A stretch of DNA of 64,000 nt from positions 2,852,001 through 2,916,000 of the forward strand of contig NZ_LT629770.1 in NCBI RefSeq assembly GCF_900105335.1, in the 5' to 3' direction. This document shows, piece by piece, positions 48,023 to 64,000 of the stretch. Made by a program: the position numbers and the translations under genes. The notes beneath the pieces were generated by a model. That model worked only from the letters and a program-made list of their open reading frames with translations. It was not told where the DNA came from and did no database searches. This DNA comes from Microbacterium paraoxydans (GTDB lineage: Bacteria > Actinomycetota > Actinomycetes > Actinomycetales > Microbacteriaceae). Within the stretch, counting starts at the first letter, position 1; each line of letters begins with the position of its first letter.

Positions 48023-49510
48023 TCAGTTGTAGACGGAGACCTCGAGGCCCACGGGGGACCAGTCGTAGACGTACTTGGCGAGGTCGATCGGCAGGTTCAC
48101 GCAGCCGTGGCTCATCCGGTTGCCGAAGTTGTTGTGCCAGTAGGTGCCGTGGAAGCCGATGTTCGGGGCGAACCACGTGATCCAGGGCACGTCCTCGGTG
48201 CAGTACGGCGCCCCCTCGTAGCAGCCCATGTCCTGCATCGCGGTGTGTGCGAACACCTTGAAGTTGCCTGTCGGCGTGGGCGTTCCGGGGAGACCGGTCG
48301 ACACGGCCCAGGACTGCACCACCTTGTCGTTCTCGAACAGGTAGGCGCGCTGCGTGCTGAGGTTGATCTCGGCGCGGCGGAACAGGTTCGTGGTCTCGAA
48401 GGGGGTCTCCGTCACGGAGAGGGCGAAGACGCCGTCTCCCGCGGCGAGCTGCGTCGCGAAGTCGTCGGCGATGCCGTCGGTGTCGCCGAGGGCGCGTCCG
48501 GTGGCGCCCTCCTTCTCGGCGCGCAGCACGTTCCCCGCGGAGTCGACGATGTTGGTCGCGTTGACAGGGGCGCGGTCCACCGCGGCGGCGAGCGTGTCGA
48601 CGGTGGTCTGGATCGCCGCCGGGTCCGCCTCGATCCGCAGCTGACCCTCGTCGTCGACCACGGTCAGCCAGGACGCGGCGACCGCGGGGGAGACCGGGAC
48701 GGTCCGTTCCTTCCCGACGTAGAAGCCGATGGAGGAGAGCATGGTGTTGAGCGTGGTGGCGGTCGCCGTCGCGTCCTCGTCGGACACCGCGGGCAGGGCC
48801 TCCGCCGGGCCGCCGGGGTAGTCGAACGTCGTGCGGCCGTCGCCGACGGCCTCGACGAACGCGGCGTTGAGATCGGCCACGTCTATACCGGTGCCGGGAA
48901 CGGAGGGCGTCACGGTGTAGGTGCCCTTCGCGGCGTCGAAGACGACTCCGGCGTCGACCGGGTCGACGAAGCTGCCGGGGACGGCGCCGCGGAGAGCTGC
49001 GGTGGCGGTCTCCTGGTCGAGCACGATGTCGGCCGACACGGGGTCACCCATCCAGGACCCGAGGTTCCACATCGGGTGGGCGGCGAACGCCGCATCGGCG
49101 AGGGCCGTGGCGTCGGCGGTCGCGCCCAGGTCGGCGCCGGTGAGCACGGCGTCATCACCATCGCCCGTGAGGGTGACCTCGGTCTGGGCGAGGTGCGAGC
49201 TGATCGCCTCGGCAGCCGCGCCCGGAGTCATCCAGCCGACCGGGATGCCCGCGACGGTGGTGCCGGGGGCGATGAGGATCATCGAGGCGGCGCCGGCGCC
49301 GAGCGCGACCACGCCGAGGCCGAGACCGATCCACAGGCCGAGGCGGCGCTTCTTCGGGGCGGGCTCGACGGGAGCCCAGGCCAGGGGCTGCTCGCCGGTC
49401 TGCGGCGGGGCCGTGTCGGTCGCCGCCTCCGGCGTCAGGACGCTCGTCGGTGTCGCATCGTCGGGCTGTGCCCCCGTTGCAGCGCCCGGCGTGGAAATCA
49501 GATCGGTCAC
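48023..49510 (-). CDS. L,D-transpeptidase (YkuD domain), membrane-anchored
   Basis: A 495-residue cell-wall enzyme predicted to form 3-3 crosslinks or to attach proteins to peptidoglycan. A Pro/Thr-rich cytoplasmic head of about 55 residues is followed by one membrane helix ([23 protein letters not shown]), two repeated putative peptidoglycan-binding modules (about 85-370, VanW/PG_binding_4-like), and the YkuD domain with the catalytic MSHGCVNLP, Cys470, plus the upstream His in IGFHGTYWH. The GTG at 49510 follows a G-rich GGGGGG; no better start was found. It is the first gene of the cell-wall themed region. Confidence 0.9.
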
Positions 49511-49625: not shown

Positions 49626-50030
49626 TCAGTCGACGACGGCGAGCCCGTCGATCTCGACGAGCATCTCCTCGCGGGGGAGGCCGGTGAACACCGTGGTGCG
49701 CGAGGGCAGGACGCCGCTGGTCGTGTGGGCCTCGACGAAGGCGCCGTAGGCCTCGTTCATGATCGGGAAGTCCTCGCGCTTGGTGAGGTAGACGCGCAGC
49801 ATCACGACATCGTCGAACGTGGCCCCGGAAGCCTCCACGATGGCCTTGACGTTCTCCAGCGTGCGGGTGGTCTGCGCCGCGACGTCGCCCGGGTACAGGT
49901 ACTCGTTCGTCTGCGGGTCGACGGGGCCCTGGCCGGAGACCTGGACGATCGGGCCCTTGCGGACGCCCTGCGAGAAGGTGTGCGCGGGGGCGGGGGCGGC
50001 GTCGGTGGAAACTCGTGTCTTCGCGGTCAT
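49626..50030 (-). CDS. RidA (YjgF/UK114) family enamine/imine deaminase
   Basis: A 134-residue protein of the RidA family. RidA proper hydrolyses reactive 2-aminoacrylate and related imines released by PLP enzymes such as serine and threonine dehydratases. Seen: SQGVRKGPIVQVSGQGPVDPQTNE, QTTRTLENVKAIVEASGATFDDVVMLRVYL and the C-terminal SRTTVFTGLPREEMLVEIDGLAVV, with the conserved Arg and Glu. The gene is divergent from a PLP enzyme that may produce such imines, with only 25 bp between the start codons. It is leaderless: TAGGCT lies 6 bp before the ATG. Confidence 0.9.
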   Translation of the reverse strand: MTAKTRVSTDAAPAPAHTFSQGVRKGPIVQVSGQGPVDPQTNEYLYPGDVAAQTTRTLENVKAIVEASGATFDDVVMLRVYLTKREDFPIMNEAYGAFVEAHTTSGVLPSRTTVFTGLPREEMLVEIDGLAVVD

Positions 50031-50036
50031 GCCGCC

Positions 50037-50049
50037 AGCCTAGTAGCCT
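50037..50049. promoter_or_regulatory. back-to-back -10 boxes of a divergent leaderless promoter pair
   Basis: The minus-strand TAGGCT (50037-50042) is 6 bp from the RidA ATG, and the plus-strand TAGCCT (50044-50049) is 6 bp from the ATG at 50056; one base separates them. Each -35 region would lie inside the other gene, so the two promoters cannot be occupied at once. Confidence 0.65.
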
Positions 50050-50055
50050 TGTTAG

Positions 50056-51273
50056 ATGCCTCTACAAATTCCGGATCCCGTCCTCGGCGCCTGGGCGAAG
50101 GGGTTCCCGGCGCACGCCGCGGGGCTGCGTCTGTCGGAGGTCGGCGCGGCCGGTCTGCGTCTCTCGGACCTCGGTACTCCGGTGCTCACGGTGCACGCGG
50201 ACGCGATCGCGCACAACGAGGACACGGTGTTCGGCTGGGCCATGCGCGAGGGCGTCCGCCTCGCCCCGCACGGCAAGACCACGATGGCGCCCGCGCTCTG
50301 GCAGCGGCTGCTCGACGCCGGAGCCTGGGGGATCTCGGTCGCGACGCCGTGGCAGGCCCGCGTCGCCGTCGACGCCGGCGTGCCGACGGTGCTCATCGCC
50401 AACGGGGTGACGGATGGCGCCGCGGCCCGCGAGCTCGGAGCGATGCTCGCCGCCGACGAGGACCTGCGGATCCTCTGCGGCGCGGATTCCCTCGCCGGTG
50501 TCGCGATCCTCGCCGACGCGCTCGCCGATGCCCCGCGGCCGCTGGACGTGCTCGTGGAGCTGGGCGGCGCGCAGGGACGGACGGGGGCGCGGACCGTGGC
50601 CGAGGGCGAGCGCATCGCCGCGGCGATCGCGGCCGCCCCTGGTCTCCGCCTGGCCGGGGTGACGGGCTACGAGGGGCCCTTCGGTCCCGATCGCTCCGCG
50701 GCCTCGGTCGCCGCGGTCGACGGCTTCCTGGCCACGCTCGTCGAGCTGCACCGCCGACTGGAGTACCCCGACGGCGTCCGCCCCGTGCTCAGCGCGGGGG
50801 GCAGCTCCTTCCCCGATCGCGCCGCCGCGGTCCTCGGCGCCGCGGGAGCGGACGCCGAGGTCGTGCTGCGCTCCGGTGCCTTCCAGATCCACGACGACGG
50901 CTTCTACTCCCGCATGTCGCCGTTCGGCCCGCTCACGGACACCGCTCCGCTGCGTTCCGCGATGCACGCGTGGTCGCGGGTGGTCTCCCAGCCCGAACCC
51001 GGCCTCGCCCTGCTCGACGCCGGGCGGCGGGACGTGCCGTTCGACATCGACCTCCCGGTGCCGCAGTCGGTCGCCGGCGCCGTGACCGCCCTGAACGACC
51101 AGCACGCCTTCCTCCGACCCGCCGAGGGGGCGACCGTCGCGGTGGGCGAGGTCGTGCGGCTGGGTCTCTCGCATCCGTGCACCGCGTTCGACAAGTGGCG
51201 CGTCGTCGCCGTGATCGACGACCCCGACGCCGAGGACCCCCGGGTGATCGACGCGGTGGCGACATGCTTCTGA
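50056..51273 (+). CDS. PLP-dependent D-serine dehydratase/D-threonine aldolase-like enzyme
   Basis: A 405-residue fold-type III PLP enzyme (alanine racemase-like barrel plus the DSD1 C-terminal domain) acting on D-amino acids. The PLP lysine is in RLAPHGKTTMAPALWQRL (about residue 76). GTPVLTVHADAIAHNED, VELGGAQGRTGAR, LSAGGSSFPD and the zinc-binding-type LGLSHPCTAFDKW at the C-terminus are family features. Dehydratase, aldolase or deaminase activity cannot be separated by eye. Leaderless start behind TAGCCT. It overlaps the following fusion gene by 10 bp and so belongs to the same operon. Confidence 0.85.
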   Translation: MPLQIPDPVLGAWAKGFPAHAAGLRLSEVGAAGLRLSDLGTPVLTVHADAIAHNEDTVFGWAMREGVRLAPHGKTTMAPALWQRLLDAGAWGISVATPWQARVAVDAGVPTVLIANGVTDGAAARELGAMLAADEDLRILCGADSLAGVAILADALADAPRPLDVLVELGGAQGRTGARTVAEGERIAAAIAAAPGLRLAGVTGYEGPFGPDRSAASVAAVDGFLATLVELHRRLEYPDGVRPVLSAGGSSFPDRAAAVLGAAGADAEVVLRSGAFQIHDDGFYSRMSPFGPLTDTAPLRSAMHAWSRVVSQPEPGLALLDAGRRDVPFDIDLPVPQSVAGAVTALNDQHAFLRPAEGATVAVGEVVRLGLSHPCTAFDKWRVVAVIDDPDAEDPRVIDAVATCF

Positions 51274-54200
51274 GCGCCGAGAAGGCCGCCGCCGGCCTGG
51301 TGCGCGTCTATCGGCGGGCGACCGTCGTCGACGGCACCGGCGCGCCGCGCTTCGTCGCGGACGTCGCGGTGGAGGGGGCAAGGGTCGTCACCGTCGTCCG
51401 CGACGGCGACGGGACGACGCTCGAGCTGCCGGACGGCGCGGTCGAGGTCGACGCGTCCGGCCTCGTCCTGGCGCCCGGTTTCATCGACATGCACGCGCAC
51501 AGCGACCTCGCGGTGCTCCAGGGCGCCGCGCACGACGCCAAGATCCGGCAGGGGGTCACGACAGAGGTGCTCGGGCAGGACGGCCTGGGCTACGCGCCGC
51601 TGGACGAGGCGACCGCCGCCGTCATCCCCGCCCAGATCGCGGGCTGGAACGGGCGGCCGGCGGAGGTCCCGTGGCGGTCGATGAACGACTTCCTGGAGGC
51701 GATAGACGTCGCCGCGGTGGCGAACGCCGCGGTGCTGGTGCCGCAGGGCAACCTCCGGATGATGGTGGTCGGGCACGACGACCGCCGGGCGACCCCTGCC
51801 GAGATCGCGGCGATGGCCGACATCCTCGGCCAGGCCCTGGATGCCGGAGCCTTCGGCATGTCGAGCGGCCTGACCTACACCCCGGGGATGTACGCCGACA
51901 CCGCGGAGCTCGAAGCCCTCTGCCGGGTGGTGGCGGAGCGCGGCGGCTACTGGGCGCCGCACACCCGCAGCTACGGGCGGGCGGCGCTGGACGCGTATCG
52001 CGAGGCCATCGAGATCGGCCGCCGCACCGGGTGCCCCGTCCATCTCACCCACGCGACCATGAACTTCGCCCCGAACCGCGGGCGCGCCGCCGAGCTGCTG
52101 GCGCTCGTCGACGCGGCGATGGCCGACGGTGTCGACGTGACCCTGGACACCTACCCCTACCTTCCGGGGGCCACGACCCTCTCCGCTCTGCTGCCGAGCA
52201 GGCTGGCGGCGACCGGCGACCTGCTCGGCGTCCTGGGGGCCCTCGACGCCGAGGGACGCGAGGCGGTCCGCGTCGAGCTGGAGGAGATCGGCTGCGACGG
52301 ATTCCACGGCGAGGCGGCGGACTGGTCGGCGATCCAGATCTCCGGGACGGCCCACCCGGATCTCGCCGGGCTCGTCGGCCGGACGATCGCCGACATCGCG
52401 GCGGAGACCGGGCAGCGCGCCGTCGATGTCGTGATCGACACGATTCTCGCCGATGCGGGCGCCACGGGTGTGCTCATGCACATCGGCGACGAGGACAACG
52501 TCCGGGCCATCATGCGGCACCCGCGGCACTCCGGCGGCAGCGACGGCATCCTCATCGGCGCGCGCCCGCACCCGCGCGGCCGCGGCACGTTCCCGCGCTA
52601 CCTCGGGCACTACGTCAGGGAGCTGGGGGTGCTGAGCCTCGAGGAGGCCGTCCGTCATCTCTCCGGCAACCCGGCTGCCCGGCTCGGCCTCGACCGCGGC
52701 GACGCACCGCGCGGCGTGATCCGCGAGGGCGCCACCGCCGACCTGGTGCTGTTCGACCCGGAGACGATCGCGGCCGGCGCCACCTTCGACGACCCGCACG
52801 GTGCGCCGCAGGGCGTGCGCGAGGTGCTCGTCGGCGGCGTGCCGGTCGTCATCGACGGCGACCCCACGGGTGCCGTCGCCGGCCGTGCGCTGCGGATGCC
52901 TCCGTCGGCGCCGCGGGCGACGGTGCCGCACATCGCCGCGGAGATCGACTCCCTGGCTCCGGGCTTCCGGTGGACGCCCTCGACCCCGATCCTCGGCGCG
53001 CCGGAGCTGGCGGCCGCGGTCGCACGGCTCGGCGGCGCGGGAGGGGACGACACCCTGCCCGCCATCCGCCTTCTGATCGACGAGAAGCTGGGTGCCGCGG
53101 CCTCCGCGGCGGGGCGGCAGGGGCCCGAGGCTTTCCGGGTGTCGGTGACGGCCTCCGGGATCGAGATCGCGGGGGCGACGCCGGAGGGGGTCTTCCGCGG
53201 CGCGACCACGCTCCGCCAACTCCGCGACCCGGACCACGACCCCGCTCTCCCCGCGACGATCCCGGCAGGGCGCTGGGAGGGCTCTCCCGCCTCCGCCTGG
53301 CGCGGCGTGATGCTCGACGTGGCGCGCCACTTCCGCCCCGTGGAGGACGTGCGTCGCCTCGTCGACCTGCTCGCCGATCACCACCTCAGCATCCTGCACC
53401 TGCACCTGACGGACGATCAGGGATGGCGCTTCGAGGTGCCCGGCTACCCGCGTCTGACCGAGGTCGGCGCACGGCGCGAGGCCACGCAACGCGGTCACGG
53501 ACCGGAGGCCACGGTCGAGCCCGGCGTGCACGAGGGCTTCTACACCTCCGCCGAGCTCCGCGACCTCGTGCGGTACGCGGAGGAGCGCTTCGTAACGCTC
53601 GTGCCCGAGGTCGAGCTGCCAGGGCACATCCAGGCCGCGCTCGCCGCCTACCCGGAGCTGGGCAACCTCGACGTCGGGGCGCCCCCCACCGGGCCGTGGG
53701 AGCGATTCGGCGTGAACGCCCGCACCCTCGCGCCGACCGCGGAGGCGCTGGCCTTCGGTCGTGCCGCCATCGACGCGCTGTGCGACGTGTTCCCGTCCGC
53801 ATGGATCGGGATCGGCGGCGACGAGGTGCCGGTGACCGAGTGGGCGGAGAGTGCAGCCGCCGCGGCACGCATGCGAGAGCTGGGGCTCGCCACGGCGCAC
53901 GACGTGCAGCCGTGGTTCACGGCGCACTTCGTGGACCACGTCCGCCGCCGCGGGCGCACCGCGCTGGCCTGGGACGAGGTGCTGGAGGGCGACGTCCCCG
54001 AGGGCGTCCGCATCCTCGCCTGGCGCGGGCCGGTCGCCATGCGCGAGGCGCTGCGGCGGGGGATCCCGGTCGTGGGATGTCCGGATCTCGAGGTCTACCT
54101 CGACTACCCGCAGTCCGAATCGCCCGAGGAGCCCATCCGCGTCGGGCCCCCGCTGACCATCGAGCGCGCGTACTCCTTCGAGGTCGTCGAGGGCGCGGTC

Positions 54201-54533
54201 GGCGGGCAGGCGAACGTCTGGACGGAGCACCTGCCGAGCAGGGACCGGGTCGACTTCGCGATGTTCCCGCGCCTCGCCGCGATCGCGGAGCGTCTCTGGG
54301 ATGGGGGAGAACCCGCACCGTTCGCCGATTTCGCACGGCGGCTGCCCACGCATCTGCGACGCCTCGCCGCCGCGGGGGTGCGGTATCGTCCGCTGGACGG
54401 TCCGTCGCCCGAGCAGCGGCGACCGGGGATTCCCGGCAAGCCGATGACGGTGGAGACCAGGGAGGGGATCGTCGCCGGCCTCGTCGAGCGCCTGCTCCGC
54501 CGGGCGGCTGTCGAGGATCCGCGGTCGGCTTGA
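51264..54533 (+). CDS. fusion of D-aminoacylase and GH20 beta-N-acetylhexosaminidase
   Basis: One uninterrupted 1089-residue frame. Residues 1-544 are an N-acyl-D-amino-acid deacylase (amidohydrolase): metal His77 and His79 in GFIDMHAHSD, LGQDGLGYAP, GMSSGLTYTPGMYADTAEL, His260/His263 in VHLTHATMNFAP, and the C-terminal GATADLVLFDPETI. Residues 545-1089 are a family 20 hexosaminidase: N-terminal alpha/beta domain, GVMLDVARHFRPVEDVRRLVD, HLHLTDDQGWRFE, and the catalytic Asp853-Glu854 in IGGDEV. The junction contains an in-frame ATG (52896) where a separate GH20 gene would begin, but no ribosome site and no stop. No signal peptide. Whether one or two polypeptides exist needs testing. It follows the PLP enzyme with a 10-bp overlap. 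Confidence 0.88.
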   Translation: MLLSAEKAAAGLVRVYRRATVVDGTGAPRFVADVAVEGARVVTVVRDGDGTTLELPDGAVEVDASGLVLAPGFIDMHAHSDLAVLQGAAHDAKIRQGVTTEVLGQDGLGYAPLDEATAAVIPAQIAGWNGRPAEVPWRSMNDFLEAIDVAAVANAAVLVPQGNLRMMVVGHDDRRATPAEIAAMADILGQALDAGAFGMSSGLTYTPGMYADTAELEALCRVVAERGGYWAPHTRSYGRAALDAYREAIEIGRRTGCPVHLTHATMNFAPNRGRAAELLALVDAAMADGVDVTLDTYPYLPGATTLSALLPSRLAATGDLLGVLGALDAEGREAVRVELEEIGCDGFHGEAADWSAIQISGTAHPDLAGLVGRTIADIAAETGQRAVDVVIDTILADAGATGVLMHIGDEDNVRAIMRHPRHSGGSDGILIGARPHPRGRGTFPRYLGHYVRELGVLSLEEAVRHLSGNPAARLGLDRGDAPRGVIREGATADLVLFDPETIAAGATFDDPHGAPQGVREVLVGGVPVVIDGDPTGAVAGRALRMPPSAPRATVPHIAAEIDSLAPGFRWTPSTPILGAPELAAAVARLGGAGGDDTLPAIRLLIDEKLGAAASAAGRQGPEAFRVSVTASGIEIAGATPEGVFRGATTLRQLRDPDHDPALPATIPAGRWEGSPASAWRGVMLDVARHFRPVEDVRRLVDLLADHHLSILHLHLTDDQGWRFEVPGYPRLTEVGARREATQRGHGPEATVEPGVHEGFYTSAELRDLVRYAEERFVTLVPEVELPGHIQAALAAYPELGNLDVGAPPTGPWERFGVNARTLAPTAEALAFGRAAIDALCDVFPSAWIGIGGDEVPVTEWAESAAAAARMRELGLATAHDVQPWFTAHFVDHVRRRGRTALAWDEVLEGDVPEGVRILAWRGPVAMREALRRGIPVVGCPDLEVYLDYPQSESPEEPIRVGPPLTIERAYSFEVVEGAVGGQANVWTEHLPSRDRVDFAMFPRLAAIAERLWDGGEPAPFADFARRLPTHLRRLAAAGVRYRPLDGPSPEQRRPGIPGKPMTVETREGIVAGLVERLLRRAAVEDPRSA

Positions 54534-54612: not shown

Positions 54613-55800
54613 ATGTCCGTTTCGGATGATCAGCGCCCCGCGGCGACGACAGACTTCGTCGCCGCGAACGCGCACGCCTTCGGCCCTGCGCGGCATCTCC
54701 GTTCGCGCACCAAGGTGCTCCCCGAGCACGCCCGCGGCCACAACCGCGCGCTCGTGCTGCAGACGCTCTACCACTCGGGGGCGATGAGCCGAGCTGACCT
54801 CTCCCGCGAGACGGGCCTCACGCGGGTCACGATCTCCGACCTCGTCGCGGAGTTCATCGCCGACGGCATCGTCGTCGAGATCGGCGTCCGCGAGGCGGTC
54901 GGGCCCGGAAAGCCGCCGATCCTCATCGACATCGACCGGGTGGGGCATCAGATCATCGGGCTCGACCTGTCCGGACCGACCGCGTTCGAGGGGGCCGTGC
55001 TCAGCCTCGACGGCGACGTCCTGGAGCGGCGGCAGGTGCCGCGTCCGGAGACGCCGGACGGCGACGCGGCGTACGACGCCCTCCGCGGCCTCGCGCAGAC
55101 CCTCGTCGAGATCGCCACGCAGCCGGTGCTCGGCGTGGGCATCGGCACCCCGGGTGTCGTGCGTCCGGACGGCCTCGTCCTCAGCTCGCCCAACCTCGGC
55201 TGGACCGACTTCCCGCTGGAGGCGAAGCTCAGCGCCGACCTCGACCTGCCCGTGCTGGCGCGGAACGACGCCAATGCCGCGGTCCTCGCCGAGTACACGT
55301 TCGGCGAGGCGGAAGCCGACTTCATGCTGATCAAGATCGGCCGAGGCGTGGGCGCAGGGCTGATCACCGGCAGCCAGCCGCTCCTCGGCAGCCGTTTCGC
55401 CGCAGGGGAGATCGGTCACGTCGTCGTCGGCACGGACGGCGGGCCTCGCTGCGCGTGCGGCAAGATCGGCTGCCTGGAGGCCTGGCTGAGCGTGAGTCGC
55501 ATGCAGGAGGCGCTCGACGCCGACCCGGCCGCGCGCGAGGAGATCCTCCGCGACTCCGGGACCCGCATGGCGATCGCGATCGCCCCGATCGTCGCCGCCC
55601 TCGACCTGTCCGAGGTCGTGCTCTCCGGGCCCGCTGAGCTGCTGGACGGCACGCTCATCGACGCGGCCGTCGAGACGCTCCACGCGCGGACGCTCGAAGG
55701 CGTCTTCGAGGACGTCATGGTGCGGCTCACCCGTCAGGACGACATCGTGCTCCGAGGCGCCGCGGTGATGGTGCTCTCGGGGCAGCTGGGGGTGTCGTGA
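54613..55800 (+). CDS. ROK family transcriptional regulator (NagC-like)
   Basis: A 395-residue sugar-responsive repressor. Residues 40-100 form a winged helix-turn-helix (HNRALVLQTLYHSGAMSRADLSRETGLTRVTISDLVAEFI). The rest is a ROK sugar-binding domain (GLDLSGPTAFEGAVLSLDG, GVGIGTPGVVRPDGLVL, NDANAAVLAEYTFGEA, GEIGHVVVGTDGGPRCACGKIGCLEAWLS with the zinc Cys cluster). Standing before a ROK kinase and nagB and behind the GH20 fusion, it probably senses GlcNAc or its phosphate and controls this island. A candidate operator overlaps its promoter. Confidence 0.9.
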   Translation: MSVSDDQRPAATTDFVAANAHAFGPARHLRSRTKVLPEHARGHNRALVLQTLYHSGAMSRADLSRETGLTRVTISDLVAEFIADGIVVEIGVREAVGPGKPPILIDIDRVGHQIIGLDLSGPTAFEGAVLSLDGDVLERRQVPRPETPDGDAAYDALRGLAQTLVEIATQPVLGVGIGTPGVVRPDGLVLSSPNLGWTDFPLEAKLSADLDLPVLARNDANAAVLAEYTFGEAEADFMLIKIGRGVGAGLITGSQPLLGSRFAAGEIGHVVVGTDGGPRCACGKIGCLEAWLSVSRMQEALDADPAAREEILRDSGTRMAIAIAPIVAALDLSEVVLSGPAELLDGTLIDAAVETLHARTLEGVFEDVMVRLTRQDDIVLRGAAVMVLSGQLGVS

Positions 55801-55831: not shown

Positions 55832-56797
55832 ATGATCGTCCCCGCCTCGGCCGACCGCGCCGGTCGGCCCCTTCGCGTGGGTCTGGACGTCGGCGGCACC
55901 AAGATCGACGCCGTCGCCGTGGACCCGGCCGGGACGATCCTCGCCCGCCTGCGTCGCCCGACCGGGTGGGGAGAGGACGCCGTCGTCGACAGCATCGTCT
56001 CCACCGTCGCCGCCCTCGCCGAGGAGAGCGGGCTGCCGCTGTCCGCCGTCGCTTCCGCTGGCATCGGCATCCCCGGCCTCGTGGACGCCGAGACCGGCCG
56101 TGTGCTCCACGCCGTGAACCTCGGCGTGGAGTCGCTCGACCTCGCGGCGCGCGCCGAGCAGGCGCTGGGCGTCCCCTTCCGGGTGGAGAACGACGTGAAA
56201 GCGGCTGCGCTCGGCGCCGCCGTCCTGAGCGACGTCGCCGGCTCGATGGCCTACCTGAACCTCGGCACCGGCGTCGCCGCCGGCATCGTCGTCGACGGCC
56301 GCATCTGGCGCGGCGCGCGGGGGACCGCAGGGGAGGTCGGGCACCTCTCGGTCGACCCGCGCGGCCGATTGTGCGGCTGCGGACAGCGCGGCTGCGTGGA
56401 GACCTTCTGCGGCGGCGGGGCGCTGGCCAAGGCCTGGGGGCGTCCCGGCGCACTGCCCGTCAAGGACATCGTCGAGGCGGCGGACGCGGGCGATCCGCAC
56501 GCTCTGGCGCTGCAGGCGGACCTCTTCTTCGGTGCGGCAGCGGCCGTGCGCGTGCTCGTGCTGTCGGCCGACGTCGAGACCGTGGTCATCGGCGGCGGTC
56601 TCACCGCGCTCGGCGGTCGTCTCGCGGACGGGATCCGCGCCGCCCTGCACACGGGCGCCCAGGCGTCACCGTTCCTGAAGTCCCTGCGGCTGGATGAGAG
56701 AATCGAACTGCTCCCCGCGGGTTCCCCCGCCGCCGCCTTCGGCGCCGCTCTGGTGGGCGCATCCATTTCTGAGAAGGAGATCGTTCCGCATGGCTGA
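55832..56797 (+). CDS. ROK family sugar kinase, probable N-acetylglucosamine kinase
   Basis: A 321-residue ATP-dependent sugar kinase. LRVGLDVGGTKIDAVAVD is the phosphate-1 loop, GIGIPGLVDAETG and VENDVKAAALGAA the sugar site with catalytic Asp, and GEVGHLSVDPRGRLCGCGQRGCVETFCGG the ROK signature with zinc ligands. Glucose and GlcNAc kinases share these motifs; the GlcNAc call rests on the neighbours nagB and nagA. The ATG at 55832 has only a weak ribosome site, 31 bp after the regulator. The stop overlaps the nagB start. Confidence 0.85.
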   Translation: MIVPASADRAGRPLRVGLDVGGTKIDAVAVDPAGTILARLRRPTGWGEDAVVDSIVSTVAALAEESGLPLSAVASAGIGIPGLVDAETGRVLHAVNLGVESLDLAARAEQALGVPFRVENDVKAAALGAAVLSDVAGSMAYLNLGTGVAAGIVVDGRIWRGARGTAGEVGHLSVDPRGRLCGCGQRGCVETFCGGGALAKAWGRPGALPVKDIVEAADAGDPHALALQADLFFGAAAAVRVLVLSADVETVVIGGGLTALGGRLADGIRAALHTGAQASPFLKSLRLDERIELLPAGSPAAAFGAALVGASISEKEIVPHG

Positions 56798-57569
56798 GGT
56801 CGTCATCGTCGAGAATGCCGAGGCCGCCGGCGCCCTGGTCGCCACCGAGATCGTCGAGCTCATCGACCGTCGCCAGGACGCCGTCCTGGGGCTCGCGACC
56901 GGATCGACGCCGTTGCCCGTCTACCAGGCACTCCGCAGCCGCCTGGCGGGGCGCGACGTCTCGCAGGTGCGCGGCTTCGCGCTCGACGAGTACGTCGGGA
57001 TCGACCCGTCCCACCCGGAGAGCTACCGATCGGTGATCACGCGCGAGGTGGTCGAGCCGCTCGGCCTCGACCCGGAGCGCATCCACGTGCCGAACGGCGC
57101 GGAGGCCACCATCCAGCACGCCGGTGAGGACTACGACGCGGCCATCGCCGCGGCGGGCGGGGTCGACCTGCAGATCCTCGGCATCGGCACCGACGGGCAC
57201 ATCGGGTTCAACGAGCCCGGATCCTCCTTCGCCTCCCGCACCCGGGTGAAGACCCTGACGGAGCAGACCCGCGAGGACAACGCCCGCTTCTTCGACTCGA
57301 TCGACGATGTCCCGATGCACTGCATCACGCAGGGGCTGGGGACCATCCTGGAAGCGCGCCACCTCGTGCTGCTGGCGTTCGGCGAAGGCAAGGCCGAGGC
57401 CGTGGCCGGTGCGGTCGAGGGGCCGGTCACCGCGCTGCTGCCCGGGTCGGCCATCCAGCTGCACCCGCACGCGACCGTCGTCGTCGACGAGGCCGCCGCC
57501 TCGAAGCTGCAGCTCGCCGACTACTACCGCTACACGTTCGCGAACAAGCCGGCCTGGCAGGGCATCTGA
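56790..57569 (+). CDS. nagB: glucosamine-6-phosphate deaminase
   Basis: NagB converts glucosamine-6-phosphate to fructose-6-phosphate and ammonia. The 259 residues include VLGLATGSTPLPVYQAL (phosphate loop), FALDEYVGIDPSHPESYRS (catalytic Asp), LGIGTDGHIGFNEPGSSFASRTRVKTL (catalytic His and the allosteric-type loop) and the C-terminal ASKLQLADYYRYTFANKP. ATG 56790 has AAGGAGA 10 bp upstream and overlaps the kinase stop by 8 bp. Last gene of the ROK regulator-kinase-nagB operon. Confidence 0.96.
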   Translation: MAEVVIVENAEAAGALVATEIVELIDRRQDAVLGLATGSTPLPVYQALRSRLAGRDVSQVRGFALDEYVGIDPSHPESYRSVITREVVEPLGLDPERIHVPNGAEATIQHAGEDYDAAIAAAGGVDLQILGIGTDGHIGFNEPGSSFASRTRVKTLTEQTREDNARFFDSIDDVPMHCITQGLGTILEARHLVLLAFGEGKAEAVAGAVEGPVTALLPGSAIQLHPHATVVVDEAAASKLQLADYYRYTFANKPAWQGI

Positions 57570-57579
57570 TCCGGGGGCG

Positions 57580-57987
57580 CTAGCGCGCTCCGGCCGGCCA
57601 CGCGAGCGGCAGCAGATGCTCGACGCTCAGCGGGGCCAGCGGGAGCGCTGCGGCATCGTCCGGGGTGATCCAGCGCAGCTCGGCGAGCTCGGCCTGCACC
57701 TGCACCGTCGCCGGATCCACCGAGGTCGCGAAGGCATCGGCCACGACGCGGTGACCCGGTTCATTGGCGGCCGCCGACACGAAGCGGCCCAAAGGGCGCA
57801 GGTCGGACTCCGCGAGTTCGAGGCCGAGCTCCTCGTGCAGCTCGCGGATGAGGGTCTCGACGGGCGACTCGCCCGGCTCCGGCTTGCCTCCGGGCTGCAT
57901 GAAGCGGGTCGTGCCGTGCTTGCGGACGACGAGGACCCGCCCTTGCGTATCGACGATCACGGCGGCGCTCACATGGATGTCAGGCAT
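57580..57987 (-). CDS. Nudix hydrolase
   Basis: A 135-residue hydrolase of nucleoside-diphosphate-linked compounds. The complete Nudix box GGKPEPGESPVETLIRELHEELGLEL is present (G-x5-E-x7-R-E-x2-E-E-x-G). It begins HVSAAVIVDTQGRVLVVRKHG, and the fold is of the MutT-like housecleaning kind; substrate unknown. ATG 57987 is chosen because it overlaps the end of the upstream oxidase gene by 8 bp and gives a full Nudix domain. Confidence 0.88.
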   Translation of the reverse strand: MPDIHVSAAVIVDTQGRVLVVRKHGTTRFMQPGGKPEPGESPVETLIRELHEELGLELAESDLRPLGRFVSAAANEPGHRVVADAFATSVDPATVQVQAELAELRWITPDDAAALPLAPLSVEHLLPLAWPAGAR

Positions 57988-59344
57988 CGGGGGAGAAGAC
58001 CTTTCCGGGGTTGAGGATGCCGAGCGGGTCGAAGACCGCGGCGATGTCGCGCTGGAGGCGCCACTGATCCTCGCCGAGCTCGTCGGCCAGCCAGCGCCGT
58101 TTGAGGACGCCGATGCCGTGCTCGCCGGTGAGGGTTCCGCCCAGCCGGATCGCGGCGCGGAAGAGCTCGTCGGCCGCCGCCCACACCTGCGGCGGGGTCT
58201 CCGGGCCCTCGAAGATGAAGTTCGGGTGCAGGTTGCCGTCGCCGGCATGGGCCACCGTCGGGATCACCATGTCGAACTGCCGCTCGATCCGGGCGATCTC
58301 GTCGAACATGGCCGGCATCGCGCTCCGCGGTACCGAGACGTCCTCGATGAGCGTGGTCCCGAGGGACGCCATCGCGGCGTGCATCGACCGTCGGATCGCG
58401 AGCAGACGATCGCCCTCGACGGGGTCGTGCGAGACCACGGGAACGCCCTCGTGGGCGCTCAGGATCGCGGCGATGGCGTCCGCCTCCGCGCGCGCGGCCG
58501 GACCGTCGGTCTGGATCGTCAGCTGTGCGGCGCCCGGGGTCGGCGCGGGGAGGGCGAGCAGGGCGTGGACGGCGGCGAGGCTCGCGGCATCCATGAGCTC
58601 CATGATGGCGGGCTGGATCCCCGCGGCGGTCACCGCCGCAGATCCTGCGGCCGCCGCGCGCACGCCGGGGAAGGTCGCCGTCACGGTGCAGGTCTCGCCC
58701 GGCACCAGGCGGCGCAGCTTGAGCGTGGCCCCGACGACGACGCCGAGCGTTCCCTCCGACCCCACGACGAGGGCGGTGAGGTCGAGCCCGGTGACGCCCT
58801 TCACGCTGCGGTGCCCGAGGTGCAACAGGCGCCCGTCGGCGAGGACGAGGTCGACGCCGAGCACCGCATCGCGGACGACGCCGTACTTCGCGCAGAGCAG
58901 TCCGCCGGCTCCGGTCGCGATGTTGCCGCCGACGGTGGAGATGTCACGACTGGCGGGGTCGGGCGGCCACCAGAGTCCCTGGGCCGCCAGATGCGCGTTG
59001 AGGTCGGCGTTGAGGATCCCGGGTTCGACCACGGCGAGGAGGTCGTCCGGCCGCACCTCGAGGACGGCGTCCATACGGCGGAGGGAGAGGACGATCTCTC
59101 CATCGCCGGCGTTGGCGGCCCCGGCGAGCCCGGTCCCGGCGCCGCGCACGACGACGGGGGTGCGCGTAGCCGAGGCGATGCGCATGGTCTGCTGCACGTC
59201 GTCCACGCTCTCCGCGTGGACGACGGCCAGGGGGAGACCCACCGCGGCATGGCCGGAGCGGTCGGCCGTGGCGTCATGCCTCGCCTGCTCGCTGACGTCC
59301 ACGCGCGCCCCGAGGGCGTCGCGGAGCAGCGAGACGGCGCTCAC
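57980..59344 (-). CDS. FAD-linked oxidase, GlcD-like 2-hydroxyacid dehydrogenase
   Basis: A 454-residue flavoprotein of the GlcD/D-lactate dehydrogenase family. The FAD-binding PCMH domain is clear (VVVRGAGTGLAGAANAGDGEIVLSL, ISTVGGNIATGAGGLLCAKYG, VVGSEGTLGVVVGATLKL), and the C-terminal cap has HAGDGNLHPNFIF and GGTLTGEHGIGVLKRRWL, with the His and Glu typical of 2-hydroxyacid oxidation. D-lactate or glycolate are candidates; D-lactate could come from lactylated muramic acid residues, which is speculation. GTG start at 59344, 10 bp after the YrdB-like gene. It is followed by the overlapping Nudix gene. Confidence 0.88.
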   Translation of the reverse strand: MSAVSLLRDALGARVDVSEQARHDATADRSGHAAVGLPLAVVHAESVDDVQQTMRIASATRTPVVVRGAGTGLAGAANAGDGEIVLSLRRMDAVLEVRPDDLLAVVEPGILNADLNAHLAAQGLWWPPDPASRDISTVGGNIATGAGGLLCAKYGVVRDAVLGVDLVLADGRLLHLGHRSVKGVTGLDLTALVVGSEGTLGVVVGATLKLRRLVPGETCTVTATFPGVRAAAAGSAAVTAAGIQPAIMELMDAASLAAVHALLALPAPTPGAAQLTIQTDGPAARAEADAIAAILSAHEGVPVVSHDPVEGDRLLAIRRSMHAAMASLGTTLIEDVSVPRSAMPAMFDEIARIERQFDMVIPTVAHAGDGNLHPNFIFEGPETPPQVWAAADELFRAAIRLGGTLTGEHGIGVLKRRWLADELGEDQWRLQRDIAAVFDPLGILNPGKVFSPDA

Positions 59345-59732: not shown

Positions 59733-59738
59733 AGTCTA
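59733..59738 (-). promoter_or_regulatory. -10 box overlapping the stop codon of the sigma-fusion gene
   Basis: Minus-strand TAGACT, 6 bp before the YrdB-like ATG; its TAG is the stop codon of the upstream gene. Confidence 0.6.
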
Positions 59739-61793
59739 TTCCGCGACCGGAGCGTCCTCCGCCGGAGCCGGGGCCTCCCCGGCCGGGGCCTCCTCGGCCG
59801 GGGCGGGCGCAGCCGGTGCAGCTTCGGGGGCCGGTGCGGGCTCCGTCGGCGCCGTTGCAGCAGGTTCCGGCTCAACGGTGTCCGCGGCCTCGTCGACCGG
59901 TGTCGCGTTCTCCTCGGAGGTGGTGGGCGCCGTGACCTCATCGACCGGAGGGGCCACCGGTTCGGCCTCGTCGATGACGACCGCCGTCTGCTCGACGGGA
60001 GCAGAGGCCGCCGTGCGCTCATCCGCGCCCGCGCCCTGGGGCTCCAGTGCGTAGAGCGTCGTGTCGGACGAGGGGCCCGCCTCGCCGGACGGCAGGTAGT
60101 ACCGGAACGTCACCGGTACGAGGTCGGCGATCAAGAACTGGTCCCACGAAGCGCGGAGCTCGAGGGTGCCGGTGCCAGCCTCGCCCAGGACGACGCTGTC
60201 GGCGAGTTCGCCAGCGAGAAGGGCCTGCACGATCGCACCCGGGGCGCCTGCGATCGGCACGAAGTAGTACCAGTGCAGATCGTCGCCGAACCAGACGTCG
60301 GCGGTGCTCCAGGTGGGCGGGTCCGTGGGGATCGCGGGGCCTACCGGGTCGACGGGGTCCACCGGGTCGACGGGGTCCACCGGGTCGACGGGGTCGACGG
60401 GGTCCACCGGGTCGACGGGGTCCACGGGGTCTACCGGGTCGACGGGGTCTACCGGATCCACGGGATCGACCGGGTCCACGGGAGCGACGGGCGGCAGCGT
60501 GGCCTCGGGGAGCGCGGGGACGACCACGGGGGCGGCGGGAGCCGCGTCGGGTCCGGTCTCCGAAAAGACCGGCGGAGCCGCCTCGTCCTCGGCGGGCGGA
60601 GCCGGCGGCTGCTCGACGTCCGGCGTCTCGATCACCACGGGCTCGTCGAGGTCGAGCGACGAGTCCGGCGCGATGTCGGTCGTGATCGACGACGGATCGG
60701 TGTCGGAGGCGCTGGGCAGCGAGGTCGCCGGGTTCGAACCGGTGAGGCCGGGGACGATCGCCGCAGCGGCGACCACTCCGGCCACCACGAGGGCGGCGGA
60801 CCCGGCACCGACGACGGCGCCCATGCCCGTGAAGACGCCACCCGTGCTCGCGCCCGTGCCGCCGGCGGAGCCGGCTCCCGACCCGGCGGCGCCGGAGCCG
60901 GCTGCCGCGGCCTGACCGATGCCGCCGTCGCCGACGAAGACCGCACCCGGAATGGTCGACGACATCCCCGCCACTGCCAGGACCGGCGCACCGCCCTGAA
61001 GAGCTGCGAGGTACCCGGAGGCGCCGGTGGCACCGAGGACGAGCGGGAGCAAAACGAGTGCGAGGCGCTTGGAGACGTCCTTGGCCTCGGCCGCGACGAT
61101 CATGCAGCGGGCGCACTCGTCGAGGTGCAGCTCCAGGCGACGGTGGTCGCGGGTCGCGAGGTTGCCGCGCGAGTAGGCACCGAGGTGCTCGATGGTCCAC
61201 TGGCATTCGGAGCCGGGGCTCGCGCTGCGCAGGTGCGCCTGGATCCAGGCTTCACGCAACCCTTCACGGGCGCGGAAGGCGAGTTGCGAGACCGCGCCCG
61301 CCTTCATGCCGAGGAGCGGGGCCACCTCCTGGGGCTTCATCTGCTCGATCTCGGTGTACCAGAGCACTTCCTGCCATCGCGACGGGAGGCTGCGGAAGGC
61401 CTGCGCGGTGAGACTGCGGTCGAGGGCCTCGTTCGTGGCGTGCTCGGTGCTGTCCGGGTCGGCCACCGTGTCGAGCTCGTCGATCGCGGTCTCGCGGCGT
61501 GCGCGTCCCCACGCAGCGGCGGTGTTGCGGATGCTGGTGAAGAGGTAGGCGCGGAACGAGCCGTTGGGGCCGCCGCCCTTGAGGATCGCCTGGTAGATGC
61601 GGGTATAGGACTCCTGCACCAGGTCGTCCGGATCGATCGAGGATGTCACCGATCGGGCGACGGCCATGCCGGACGGGTAGTGCCGTCTCCAGAGTTCCCC
61701 GAACGCCCCCTTGTCGCCGGAGCGGACGCGGAGGATCAGATCGGCATCGCCGATGGTCTCGTCTGGTGTGGTGTTCTCTCGGTGCACTGTCAT
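59736..61793 (-). CDS. sigma factor fused to ZAS anti-sigma motif, membrane helices and VDP-repeat ectodomain
   Basis: A 685-residue single polypeptide. Residues 1-180 are an ECF sigma factor: region 2 ([53 protein letters not shown]) and region 4 ([48 protein letters not shown]). Then comes a perfect zinc anti-sigma motif C197-x25-H223-x3-C227-x2-C230, hydrophobic stretches near 243-275 and 325-350, an acidic Pro-rich stalk with 15 VDP repeats (about 438-483), an exported-looking domain ([46 protein letters not shown]), and an Ala/Glu/Pro tail. ATG 61793 is used; an in-frame ATG at 61814 is possible. Release by proteolysis is inference. Confidence 0.85.
60346..60480 (-). repeat. 15 tandem 9-bp units coding Val-Asp-Pro
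   Basis: Fifteen uninterrupted 9-bp units (plus strand GG[GA]TC[GCT]AC[GC]) encode (VDP)15 in the sigma-fusion protein. Units differ mostly at the Asp and Pro third bases in alternating patterns, indicating expansion by duplication of units. Confidence 0.92.
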
Positions 61794-62298
61794 CCATCTG
61801 GTCCCGGGGCACACAGCCGTCCCCAGGAGGAGAGACGCGAGAAGGCGTCTTTCATTACGCGGTCAGACCATTCTCTCGCGAAATCGGCATGGTGGCCAGC
61901 CCCGGTGCGGACTCGGAGGAGATGCTCGGGAGGGGTCCGCGGTGCCCGGCGCGGACCGCCCGGAAAGTTTTCTGAACTTTTTTCAGAGAACCGCGTAATG
62001 AACCGGGCGCCCCTTCGTCTCATCCCGTAGAGACAGCCGAAATGGACTCCACCGGGGGGCGGAGTTCCGGCGCTGGTGCGGGGGGTACTGCACCAGTGGG
62101 CGGGTCGGGATCCTCGGGGGAGGAGCTCCCGGCCCCGCCCGCTCGAGCGGGAGGGAAAGGGCCGCCGATCTGGGGAGAACGGCGGCCCTCCACTCCCACC
62201 TTGCGAGACGCGCGACGCCGATCTGGGGAATCCGGTGCCGCATCTCGTCCGATCGACCGGAGACCGCAGCGCTGCGCGTCGCGCGCAGCGCTGTCCTC
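61794..62298. other. 505-bp gene-poor region between the sigma-fusion gene and nagA
   Basis: No credible gene. It holds a 13-bp perfect inverted repeat (TTCATTACGCGGT at 61851-61863; complement at 61990-62002), an A/T-rich patch at 61970-61990 that is rare in this genome and may contain the sigma-fusion promoter, an 8-bp hairpin (62159-62166 / 62181-62188), a 14-bp direct repeat CGCCGATCTGGGGA (62163 and 62216), and the nagA terminator at its right end. The long leader suggests complex control of the membrane sigma gene. Confidence 0.6.
62267..62293 (-). terminator. terminator of the GH20-nagA operon
   Basis: A 12-bp perfect stem (CAGCGCTGCGCG / CGCGCAGCGCTG) with a 3-nt loop, 6 bp beyond the nagA stop on the minus strand. 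No T tract. Confidence 0.6.
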
Positions 62299-63471
62299 CT
62301 AGGCGGGCAGCGCCGGTCCCGACCAGACCCGCGCGACGCGCAGCTCCGCGTCCAGAAGCACGGCATCGCCGAGCAGGCCGGGCCGAAGCGCGCCGAGGTG
62401 CGCCTCGCGTCCGATCGCGCGGGCCGGGGTCTCCGTGAGCGCCCGCACGACCTCCGGAAGGGGGACGCCGGCCGCCACCGCCCGCTGCAGGGCGACATCC
62501 TGAGTCAGCGTGGAGCCGGCGATCGAGCCGGTGTCGTCCGCGCGGGCCACGCCGTTCTCGACGGTGACCTTCACCGCACCGAGGTCGTACTTGCCGTCGG
62601 CGCTCCCGGCCGCGGCCATGGCGTCGGTGATGAGCGCCACCCGACGCGGCGCCGCGTCGAACACGAGCTTGACGACGTGCGGATCGAGATGCACGTCGTC
62701 GGCGATGGCCTCCAGGATCACTCGATGATCGGCGGCCGCGGCAAGCACCGGACCGGGGGCGCGGTGGTGGATGCCGGGCATCGCGTTGAACGCGTGGGTC
62801 AGCAGCGAGGCGCCGGCTTCGAAGGCGGCGACGGCCATGGCGGCGTCGGCGTCGGTGTGTCCCACCGCTGCCGCGGCCCCCGCCGCGACGATCTGACGGA
62901 CGGCGTCGATCCCGCCGGGGAGCTCCGGCGCGATGGTGACCTGACGGACGGTGCCTTCTCCGGCCTCCAGCAGACGGGCCACGTCGGCCGCGACGGGGTG
63001 CCGCAGCAGTGAGGGCTCATGGGCGCCGTGGTGACCGGGGTCGAGGAACGGCCCCTCCAGGTGCGAGCCGAGCACGTCCGCATCGGTCCTGGTCAGGGCG
63101 GCGATCAGGGCGACACTGCGGGCGAGGTCGTCGATCGTGCCGGTGACGAGCGAGATGACGGCCCTGGTGGTGCCGTGCTCGCGGTGCAGATCCCGTCCGG
63201 TCCGGATCGCGTCCACACCGTCGTCGTACGCCGCGCCCGCTCCGCCATGACCGTGGATGTCGACGAAGCCCGGCGTGAGCAGCGCGCCCGCGCCCGCCAC
63301 GGCCGCGCCGTCCACGACCTCGGTCGCGGGCTCCCAGTCCGTTCCGGTGCCGCGGGACGCCACGACGCCGTCCTCGATGCGCACCCAGCCGTCCTCGACG
63401 ATCTCCCCGCGGTCGACGAGGCGGACGGAGTGGATGACCAGGGAACCGGTCGCGGAGGAGAGGGTCTTCAA
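62299..63471 (-). CDS. nagA: N-acetylglucosamine-6-phosphate deacetylase
   Basis: NagA removes acetate from GlcNAc-6-phosphate to give the NagB substrate. The 390-residue amidohydrolase shows LLTPGFVDIHGHGG, GSHLEGPFLDPGHHGAHEP (metal-binding Glu), AAVGHTDAD and LLTHAFNAMPGIHHRAPG (metal His pair), and LITDAMAAAG with catalytic Asp. The TTG start at 63471 overlaps the upstream stop as TTGA and has GGAG 7 bp upstream. It is coupled to the GH20 gene, so hexosaminidase and deacetylase are made together, away from nagB but probably under the same regulator. Confidence 0.95.
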   Translation of the reverse strand: MKTLSSATGSLVIHSVRLVDRGEIVEDGWVRIEDGVVASRGTGTDWEPATEVVDGAAVAGAGALLTPGFVDIHGHGGAGAAYDDGVDAIRTGRDLHREHGTTRAVISLVTGTIDDLARSVALIAALTRTDADVLGSHLEGPFLDPGHHGAHEPSLLRHPVAADVARLLEAGEGTVRQVTIAPELPGGIDAVRQIVAAGAAAAVGHTDADAAMAVAAFEAGASLLTHAFNAMPGIHHRAPGPVLAAAADHRVILEAIADDVHLDPHVVKLVFDAAPRRVALITDAMAAAGSADGKYDLGAVKVTVENGVARADDTGSIAGSTLTQDVALQRAVAAGVPLPEVVRALTETPARAIGREAHLGALRPGLLGDAVLLDAELRVARVWSGPALPA

Positions 63472-64000
63472 CGGGCGCTCCAGGGGATCTCGGGGGCGGG
63501 GTGGAAATCGACCCCCTCAGCCTTCCACAGCGGCGCGAGGGCGCCGACCCGGGCGCGGAAGGACTCCCACGTGCGGCCCACGCCCTCGCGCGGCGACCAG
63601 GCGACCTCGGCCTGCGCGGCGGCACGGGGGAACACGAGCTGCTCCACCTCGTCGAGCGTGCGGGTGGTCTCGGACCACAGCGGCGCCTCGATCCCCAGGA
63701 TCGCCTCGTCCGGCACGGCGAGCACGGCGGTCGGCTCCCACTCGTACGCGCGACGGACGTCGATGATCGCGGCCCAGGTGAGGCCGAGCGGGAATTCGGC
63801 GGTGTACTTCATGTCGAGGTATGTCGCATCCGCCGCCGACATGATCAGGGCTCCGCCGCGCTCGACGAAGTGCGCGGCCTCCTCGGCATGCGTGCCCGTC
63901 GGCGTCGTCATGCCCCAGTACTGGCCGATCGTGCCGCGGGCGATGCCGGCTGCCGACCCCATCTCGTGCCACGCGACCGGGGTCTTGCCCTCCTCGACGA
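63468..64000 (-). CDS. family 20 glycosylhydrolase (C-terminal part)
   Basis: The frame is open to the window edge, so the start and catalytic Asp-Glu pair lie outside. The visible end reads GKTPVAWHEMGSA (late barrel strand of GH20), then IGQYWG, GGALIMSAADATYLDMKY, LGLTWAAIIDVRRAYEWEP (active-site Trp and Tyr region), APLWSETTRTLDEVEQLVFPRAAAQAEVAWSP and a short tail. These are typical chitobiase/beta-N-acetylhexosaminidase features and are clearly different from the GH20 half of the fusion at 51264-54533. Its stop is used in the TTGA overlap with nagA. Confidence 0.85.
   Translation of the reverse strand, partial: VEEGKTPVAWHEMGSAAGIARGTIGQYWGMTTPTGTHAEEAAHFVERGGALIMSAADATYLDMKYTAEFPLGLTWAAIIDVRRAYEWEPTAVLAVPDEAILGIEAPLWSETTRTLDEVEQLVFPRAAAQAEVAWSPREGVGRTWESFRARVGALAPLWKAEGVDFHPAPEIPWSAR

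Follow-up and report, generated by a model that had tools for sequence, protein, structure and literature searches.

Introduction

The ong cluster of Pseudoalteromonas encodes a GH20 enzyme (OngA), a D-aminoacylase-like enzyme (OngB), a deaminase (OngC), RidA and KdgK, and activities have been measured for OngA, OngB, OngC and KdgK (PMC9537276; this and the other papers are cited here from parts of their text). The pathway degrades an N-acetyl-amino-aldonic acid by deacetylation, deamination, phosphorylation and aldol cleavage. According to section 17 of the same paper, the complete ong set with a lytic polysaccharide monooxygenase (LPMO) was found in Gammaproteobacteria and one betaproteobacterium only. 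Here we analyse a locus of Microbacterium paraoxydans located on a stretch of 64,000 nucleotides (the window; RefSeq assembly GCF_900105335.1, contig NZ_LT629770.1, positions 2,852,001 to 2,916,000, forward strand) of a genome that consists of a single contig of 3.55 Mb. Its central gene, at 51264-54533 of the window, encodes an amidohydrolase of the D-aminoacylase fold joined to a GH20 beta-N-acetylhexosaminidase.

As in Pseudoalteromonas prydzensis, a GH20 enzyme, a D-aminoacylase-fold deacetylase, a D-serine-dehydratase-like deaminase and RidA are encoded in one gene group (PMC9537276, PMC12017989). In contrast to the single polypeptide of Microbacterium, OngA (predicted to be periplasmic) and OngB (a cytoplasmic step) are separate proteins in P. 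prydzensis. The regulator there is of the MurR/RpiR type, whereas most unfused loci related to ours carry an IclR-type regulator and the fusion locus a ROK repressor. P. prydzensis OngB (PpOngB) belongs to subtype V, with a Cys/His/His metal site, and its specificity depends critically on Ser292 and Gln298 (PMC12017989); its active-site Cys and Lys as well as Ser292 and Gln298 differ in the fused amidohydrolase.

Further relatives resemble one half of the fusion each. The D-aminoacylase of Alcaligenes faecalis (1m7j) and the N-acyl-D-glutamate deacylase of Bordetella (3gip) share the fold, the HxH motif, two metal-binding His, the catalytic Asp and the Arg of the PHPR motif. Unlike them, the fusion has Asp106 in place of a metal-ligand Cys, Thr265 in place of a carboxylate-binding Lys, and a C-terminal GH20 enzyme. 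The GH20 enzyme of Arthrobacter aurescens (3rcn) and the secreted Microbacterium enzyme HJ5Nag (PMC5387316) agree with the fused GH20 enzyme in domain organisation and in the catalytic Asp-Glu pair, but both stand alone without an amidohydrolase, and HJ5Nag is a protein of 535 residues with a predicted signal peptide. PhNah20A of Paraglaciecola hydrolytica is a GH20 enzyme from a predicted operon with a D-aminoacylase, RidA and an amino acid deaminase. These are separate genes, however, and the part of the paper at hand links them to acylated compounds or amino acids and not to N-acetylglucosaminic acid (GlcNAc1A; PMC7014002). Searches of the open-licence literature yielded no paper that describes a D-aminoacylase fused to GH20 or actinobacterial GlcNAc1A clusters, and a word search of the available text of the two ong papers (PMC9537276, PMC12017989) returned nothing on Actinobacteria or on a fusion.

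A single reading frame encodes an amidohydrolase and a GH20 enzyme

The plus-strand frame 51264-54533 is free of stops and encodes 1089 residues. A Pfam search with the entire protein placed Amidohydro_3 at residues 61-529 (E 2e-29), Glyco_hydro_20b at 613-664 and Glyco_hydro_20 at 678-1013 (E 9e-86, 288.8 bits). A first-pass annotation, made from the DNA letters without database searches, had predicted one in-frame protein with the amidohydrolase preceding the GH20 enzyme, and the domain order bears this out. In the amidohydrolase half (residues 1-543; 51264-52892) a beta-sandwich formed by residues ~14-76 and 458-543 encloses the sequence of a barrel (~77-457), and His77/His79, Asp106, His233, His263, Asp427 and Arg438 are conserved. 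A stop-free linker (residues ~544-565; 52893-52958) leads into the GH20 half (within residues 545-1089), whose domain 2 (613-664) and catalytic domain (678-1013), containing the catalytic pair Asp853-Glu854, lie at 53100-54533. The ATG at 51264 is located within the final codons of the upstream gene 50056-51273. No signal peptide was seen by eye on the fusion protein, which is probably cytoplasmic.

An AlphaFold2 model based on an alignment of 37 sequences displayed two folded halves. The mean predicted local distance difference test score (pLDDT) was 76.5, falling below 50 in the linker at residues 548-552, and the predicted template modelling score was 0.60, a value at which the mutual placement of the halves is not reliable. 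Top Foldseek matches of this moderate-confidence model were D-aminoacylases (one from Klebsiella), PpOngB and GH20 enzymes. Template modelling (TM) scores on the target were ~0.85 for the amidohydrolase half against D-aminoacylases and 0.85-0.86 for the model against 9kb1, 9kb3 and 9kb4 (E ~5e-33); the GH20 half matched Arthrobacter 3rcn with a TM score of 0.76.

The in-frame ATG at 52896 (Met545) had been taken as a mark of where a separate gene could once have started. Its presence would fit the alternative that the fusion is an artefact, a recent stop loss or an over-called gene and that two proteins are made in the cell. Of the 24 full fusions that were aligned, five have CTG, CGC, AGC or CAT instead of this codon, and no Shine-Dalgarno-like motif was seen by eye in front of it in the window. 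It is therefore not a required second start, which argues against the two-protein alternative.

The fusion is old and shared by one Microbacterium clade

Genomes of the genus (295) and of the family (299) were searched by scoring the two best candidates per genome, and the counts refer to the matches listed. One match spanned the junction in 61 of the 295 genus genomes, with 64-100% identity, so that the same two-domain order, proposed as a check by the first-pass annotation, is indeed present in other species. A stop at the junction in relatives, named there as grounds for giving up the fusion, was absent from all 61 spanning matches. No internal stop at all was reported for 60 of them, and the TAG flagged in G114 falls outside its fused frame. 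Three spanning matches were partial (G023, residues 2-1009; G083, 1-1023; G255, 161-1082); in G083 and G255 the frame breaks elsewhere in the gene. Together with a contig that ends exactly at the junction (G066) and a frameshifted draft (G183), 63 genomes were counted as fusion genomes.

Outside the genus only single halves were found among the matches listed (E <= 1e-80) in the 299 family genomes, which represent 85 genera and include a few genomes of the same genus. The best 80 loci listed of a contig search comprised 13 full fusions, one remnant (L163) and 66 unfused loci, and all 13 full fusions came from Microbacterium or a Microbacteriaceae member. In an amidohydrolase tree of 88 rows (about every second row of L164-L229 was used; quick search with SH-aLRT support only), the 21 fused rows and G115 formed one clade with 100% SH-aLRT nested in an unfused clade. 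G115 (L042) carries the amidohydrolase at the same locus without GH20, which is the opposite loss to the one described below. In none of the 437 matching plasmid records did a single place account for 80% of the protein; the 20 listed rows were single halves, and a nucleotide search with 50056-54533 gave two partial matches only.

The fusion is real and old, and it is shared by one Microbacterium clade. A recent loss of a stop codon, raised earlier as an alternative, is at odds with a fusion common to a clade whose members diverge down to 62-65% identity and group once in the tree. Moreover, remnant genes stay in frame across the junction despite large deletions. Stop-free junctions, a single clade and the frame kept in remnants led us to reject a sequencing slip, an assembly artefact or recent stop loss at the sequence level, and we give the production of two separate proteins only a very slight chance.

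In seven pairs of full fusions the ratio of nonsynonymous to synonymous substitution rates (dN/dS) was 0.07-0.11 for the amidohydrolase barrel, 0.05-0.12 for GH20 and 0.13-0.23 for the beta-sandwich. With values around 0.1 both catalytic domains are therefore kept for function. Such strong purifying selection on both fits the bifunctional enzyme that had been proposed.

Active-site residues of the two halves

The catalytic Asp427 (GSDG) and the HxH residues His77 and His79 were invariant in the family alignment, and His233, His263, Tyr205, Tyr297 and Arg438 are retained. According to the alignments to 1m7j and 3gip and the family alignment, all 53 fused and all 86 unfused rows carry Asp106 at the position of the metal-ligand Cys; some genomes appear twice among these rows, and related species are included. 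From this invariance we infer that Asp106 is a metal ligand. Compared with the Cys/His/His site of subtype V, the two His are kept and the Cys is changed. The position of the carboxylate-binding Lys254 corresponds to Thr265 (Thr in 53/53 fused and 82/86 unfused rows), and Ser292 of PpOngB aligned with Thr. At position 313, which corresponds to Gln298, Arg was found in 51 of 53 fused rows (Thr in the other two), whereas 84 of 86 unfused rows have Trp. PpOngB positions were transferred via the AfDam/BbDam numbering in PMC12017989, so that the specificity loop is aligned with less certainty than the metal site. The exchange of Trp for Arg at position 313 possibly reflects a change of specificity along with the fusion.

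By its residues the amidohydrolase is neither a plain D-aminoacylase nor a plain OngB. It carries Asp106 and Thr265 where enzymes of the AfDam/BbDam type have the Cys metal ligand and the carboxylate-binding Lys, and Thr and Arg313 at the specificity positions Ser292 and Gln298. Gene context suggests a role like that of OngB, yet two defining sets of residues differ and membership in the PpOngB family is not claimed. Of the complete N-acyl-D-amino-acid deacylase seen in the first reading of the sequence, the fold, the catalytic Asp and the HxH motif were recovered, but not the Cys and Lys of characterised members. In the GH20 half, Asp853-Glu854 was invariant in 12 aligned fusions; this pair and the catalytic domain place it among the GH20 hexosaminidases.

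Second, unlinked clusters of amidohydrolase, OngC and 2-keto-3-deoxy-6-phosphogluconate (KDPG) aldolase genes exist in the genus (L141, L142, L112 and L110 in G213, G285, G069 and G221). Their amidohydrolases are 37-40% identical, with Asp for the Cys and His for the Lys. A haloarchaeal D-aminoacylase encoded on a Natrononativus plasmid (L076) has the same Asp motif and lies near a GH20 gene; it is followed by a fumarylacetoacetate hydrolase and a gene resembling pyridoxal phosphate (PLP)-dependent aminotransferases.

Gene context suggests degradation of oxidised chitooligosaccharides

The locus comprises, in this order, a monomeric isocitrate dehydrogenase, an L,D-transpeptidase, RidA (minus strand), a PF14031 enzyme (plus strand), the fusion, a ROK repressor, a ROK kinase and NagB. 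The PF14031 protein (50056-51273, plus strand; Pfam) is a D-serine-dehydratase-like, OngC-like PLP enzyme whose gene overlaps the fusion start, and the divergent gene 49626-50030 (minus strand; profile match) encodes an OngD-like RidA family protein. OngA-, OngB-, OngC- and OngD-like genes thus lie together at 49626-54533, the likeness being one of family and context and not of comparison with the Pseudoalteromonas sequences. Downstream on the plus strand are a ROK-family repressor (54613-55800; Pfam, its N-terminal MarR-like helix-turn-helix below the Pfam cut-off), a ROK-family sugar kinase that is probably an N-acetylglucosamine (GlcNAc) kinase (55832-56797; profile match) and the glucosamine-6-phosphate deaminase NagB (56694-57569; TIGR00502 above cut-off). 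Of 41 fused loci read at length (L053-L073, L116-L135), 40 carry NagB and the ROK repressor alongside the fusion, and a contig end truncates the remaining one. Neither KdgK nor a transporter was found next to the fusion among the Pfam-scanned neighbours.

Unfused relatives of the amidohydrolase, 51-62% identical and nearly all actinobacterial, occur in Arthrobacter, Kribbella, Kitasatospora, Nocardia, Rhodococcus, Saccharopolyspora, Streptomyces and others, including one from Bacillota. Their neighbours were searched by tblastn with genes of the window and of Tsukamurella, a procedure that misses distant replacements, and some flanks were cut by contig ends. The 66 unfused loci among the best 80, which include related species and are not independent, contained an OngC-like gene in 65 cases, RidA in 63, an IclR-type regulator in 59, a kinase of the 2-keto-3-deoxygluconate (KDG) type in 53, KDPG aldolase in 48, gluconate permease in 38 and GH20 in five. 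The Tsukamurella locus is annotated as RidA, IclR, sugar kinase, 'alanine racemase', D-aminoacylase, KDPG aldolase and gluconate:H+ symporter. In six loci of the same genus the unfused set adjoins a GH20 gene, and the kinase was detected in four of them. The source genome itself has a KDPG aldolase above cut-off and two unlinked KDG-kinase-like genes whose products share 44-45% identity with the Tsukamurella kinase.

The genes of the unfused relatives match the deacetylation, deamination, phosphorylation and aldol cleavage of the ong pathway for GlcNAc1A, the sugar acid at the oxidised end of chitin cleaved by LPMOs, and these genes together with the GH20-adjoining sets suggest that GH20 would make GlcNAc1A and the amidohydrolase deacetylate it. 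Judged from sequence and context, it is likely that the fusion is a bifunctional enzyme for C1-oxidised chitooligosaccharides. In a first step the C-terminal GH20 enzyme, as its family membership and intact Asp-Glu pair suggest, would remove the non-reducing-end GlcNAc from GlcNAc-GlcNAc1A and leave GlcNAc1A. The N-terminal amidohydrolase, on account of its fold and gene context, would then remove the acetyl group of GlcNAc1A, giving glucosaminate and acetate. Deamination of glucosaminate to KDG may fall to the OngC-like enzyme encoded upstream, with RidA in support, and the unlinked KDG kinase and KDPG aldolase would complete the route. Released GlcNAc would be processed by the adjacent ROK kinase, NagA (62299-63471, minus strand; 225.6 bits against a cut-off of 225.65) and NagB. 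If this is true, two consecutive steps of oxidised-chitin degradation are joined in one protein. The pathway logic described for Gammaproteobacteria (PMC9537276) would also extend to many actinobacterial genera with a different metal-site residue, Asp for Cys.

By the configuration at C2, GlcNAc1A is chemically an N-acetyl-D-amino acid. The substrate class given by the first-pass annotation, N-acyl-D-amino acids, hence came near, unlike its example of muropeptide-like compounds: the amidohydrolase clade adjoins a D-serine-dehydratase-like enzyme, RidA, KDG-type kinase, KDPG aldolase and gluconate permease, and GlcNAc1A is more probably the substrate than a muropeptide. An ordinary deacylase acting, for instance, on N-acetyl-D-Glu or N-acetyl-D-Ser, with GH20 serving muropeptide or glycopeptide scavenging and the PLP enzyme being a D-serine dehydratase, is unlikely, although several observations are in line with it. 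Top PDB sequence matches were a D-aminoacylase and the N-acyl-D-glutamate deacylase, and Arg313 aligned with Arg295 of the latter in a weak local alignment. An L,D-transpeptidase gene (48023-49510) lies two genes off on the opposite strand. Furthermore, Pseudoalteromonas OngC also deaminates D-serine and D-threonine (PMC9537276). However, KDPG aldolase (48/66), KDG-type kinase (53/66) and gluconate permease (38/66) are not needed for D-Glu or D-Ser, and the Cys and Lys common to D-aminoacylases are absent. No family specific for muropeptides or N-acetylmuramic acid was present among 14 Pfam-scanned genes from 45094 to the window end. A muropeptide enzyme was rejected as unsupported by the context of the 66 unfused loci and the window neighbours.

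Several observations weigh against the assignment to oxidised chitooligosaccharides. Residues marking PpOngB as a GlcNAc1A deacetylase (Cys97, Lys254, Ser292 and Gln298) are replaced by Asp106, Thr265, Thr and Arg313. The bit score against PpOngB was 209, compared with 261 for the D-aminoacylase and 247 for the D-Glu deacylase, and the protein is thus no nearer to PpOngB. Among the neighbours of the fusion, Pfam recognised no kinase, aldolase or permease of the KDG branch and no sugar importer. In the fetched flanks of the 66 unfused loci KDPG aldolase went undetected in 18, the kinase in 13 and GH20 in 61. The name 'KDG kinase' reflects the sugar-kinase family that the Tsukamurella protein matched best, with a score under all curated cut-offs. 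In addition, nine of the 52 genomes with a local OngC have a second OngC and yet keep everything at the fusion locus. An AA10 LPMO match was not found in the source genome, and 55 of the 63 fusion genomes are without AA10. An LPMO of its own was therefore dropped as the substrate source, which leaves scavenging of oxidised fragments or a different oxidase as the origin. The link to AA10 and chitin is the weakest part of the proposed function.

The same 55 genomes, and the specificity-loop position with Trp in unfused and Arg in fused rows, would suit an aldonic acid of an amino sugar other than LPMO-derived GlcNAc1A, such as N-acetylgalactosaminate or the product of another oxidase or dehydrogenase on ordinary chitooligosaccharides. 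The constant flanking by NagB and the ROK repressor argues against this. In addition, AA10 was found in 11 of 295 genus genomes, eight with a fusion, two with a remnant and one with neither; 8 of 11 AA10 genomes but 55 of 284 others have the fusion (p = 3e-4, uncorrected for phylogeny). We regard this variant as quite improbable and retain C1-oxidised chitooligosaccharides as the likely substrates.

The barrel was deleted in several fusions

Eight genomes encode a shrunken, in-frame amidohydrolase before GH20 (G162, G257, G285, G129, G071, G076, G154 and G133; loci L044-L049, L051 and L043). All keep residues ~1-76 and 458-543. These form the beta-sandwich, and in PpOngB, too, the two chain ends make up this part. 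The barrel is partly or nearly all gone without introduction of a stop; its loss is least in G133 and near-total in G257 and G071, and G154 is the most eroded. In four remnant pairs dN/dS was 0.35-0.81 for the barrel remains, 0.27-0.40 for the beta-sandwich and 0.09-0.11 for GH20. Compared with full fusions the beta-sandwich is therefore still constrained, but less. In a quick GH20 tree (SH-aLRT only; 10 short loci of twice-present genomes dropped), remnants fell in at least three places, namely G133, G154 and a clade of six. The full-length, frameshifted G183 lies inside this clade, indicating further barrel loss or recombination. G154 sits on a long branch, and its neighbour G277 has no recognisable amidohydrolase.

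Presence of the OngC-like gene was scored in 71 genomes with the fusion locus, leaving out G137 and G240 (unfused), G277 (no amidohydrolase, no OngC found) and G023. The local OngC was absent in 19 of the 71, in which the amidohydrolase was whole in 11 (10 fusions and G115) and a remnant in eight. Another OngC, 45-53% identical, was encoded elsewhere in 18 of these 19 genomes compared with 9 of the 52 having a local OngC (Fisher 2e-9, uncorrected for phylogeny); the sole exception, G108, is a genome of 79% completeness. Four places of second OngC genes were read. A KDPG aldolase was present in three (G213, G285, G096) and a second amidohydrolase in three (G213, G285, G154). The stretch in G096 has KDPG aldolase and no amidohydrolase, and its fused barrel is conserved (93% to G213). 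The loss pattern together with G096 ties the fused amidohydrolase to OngC function.

The account we lean towards, with somewhat more reserve than the proposed substrate, is that the fusion turned the discontinuous beta-sandwich into a structural part of GH20. The fused activity would then have become dispensable through another deaminase encoded at an unlinked place, in many cases accompanied by another deacetylase, and the barrel would have been deleted in frame several times independently while both sandwich halves stayed on GH20. If the account is true, the remnants represent a living series of stages from the scaffold of one enzyme to the accessory domain of another. Full fusions, part barrels and almost no barrel would give an unusually complete picture of how a catalytic core is lost with its scaffold kept.

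Other genes of the window and of related loci

Beyond NagB, genes for a GlcD-like protein, a DUF2568 protein, an extracytoplasmic function (ECF) sigma factor, NagA and a second GH20 enzyme follow on the other strand. The GlcD-like protein (57980-59344) is an FAD-linked oxidase that matches GlcD-type dehydrogenases below their cut-off and is a candidate source of aldonic acids. The ECF sigma factor (59736-61814) is a frame of 692 residues; matches to known domains are confined to the first ~240 residues, and it therefore has a long C-terminal extension. Among unfused loci, a Sporosarcina cluster (L223, Bacillota) is of the same type and groups with Micrococcaceae rows in the amidohydrolase tree, perhaps via horizontal transfer. 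A Microbacteriaceae metagenome-assembled genome (L191) has NagB between RidA and the amidohydrolase, another arrangement of GlcNAc and aldonic-acid genes. The second GH20 gene of the window (63468-64000 and on; L145:3469-4980) lies immediately upstream of NagA and is read in the same direction, and its product is ~32% identical to the fused GH20.

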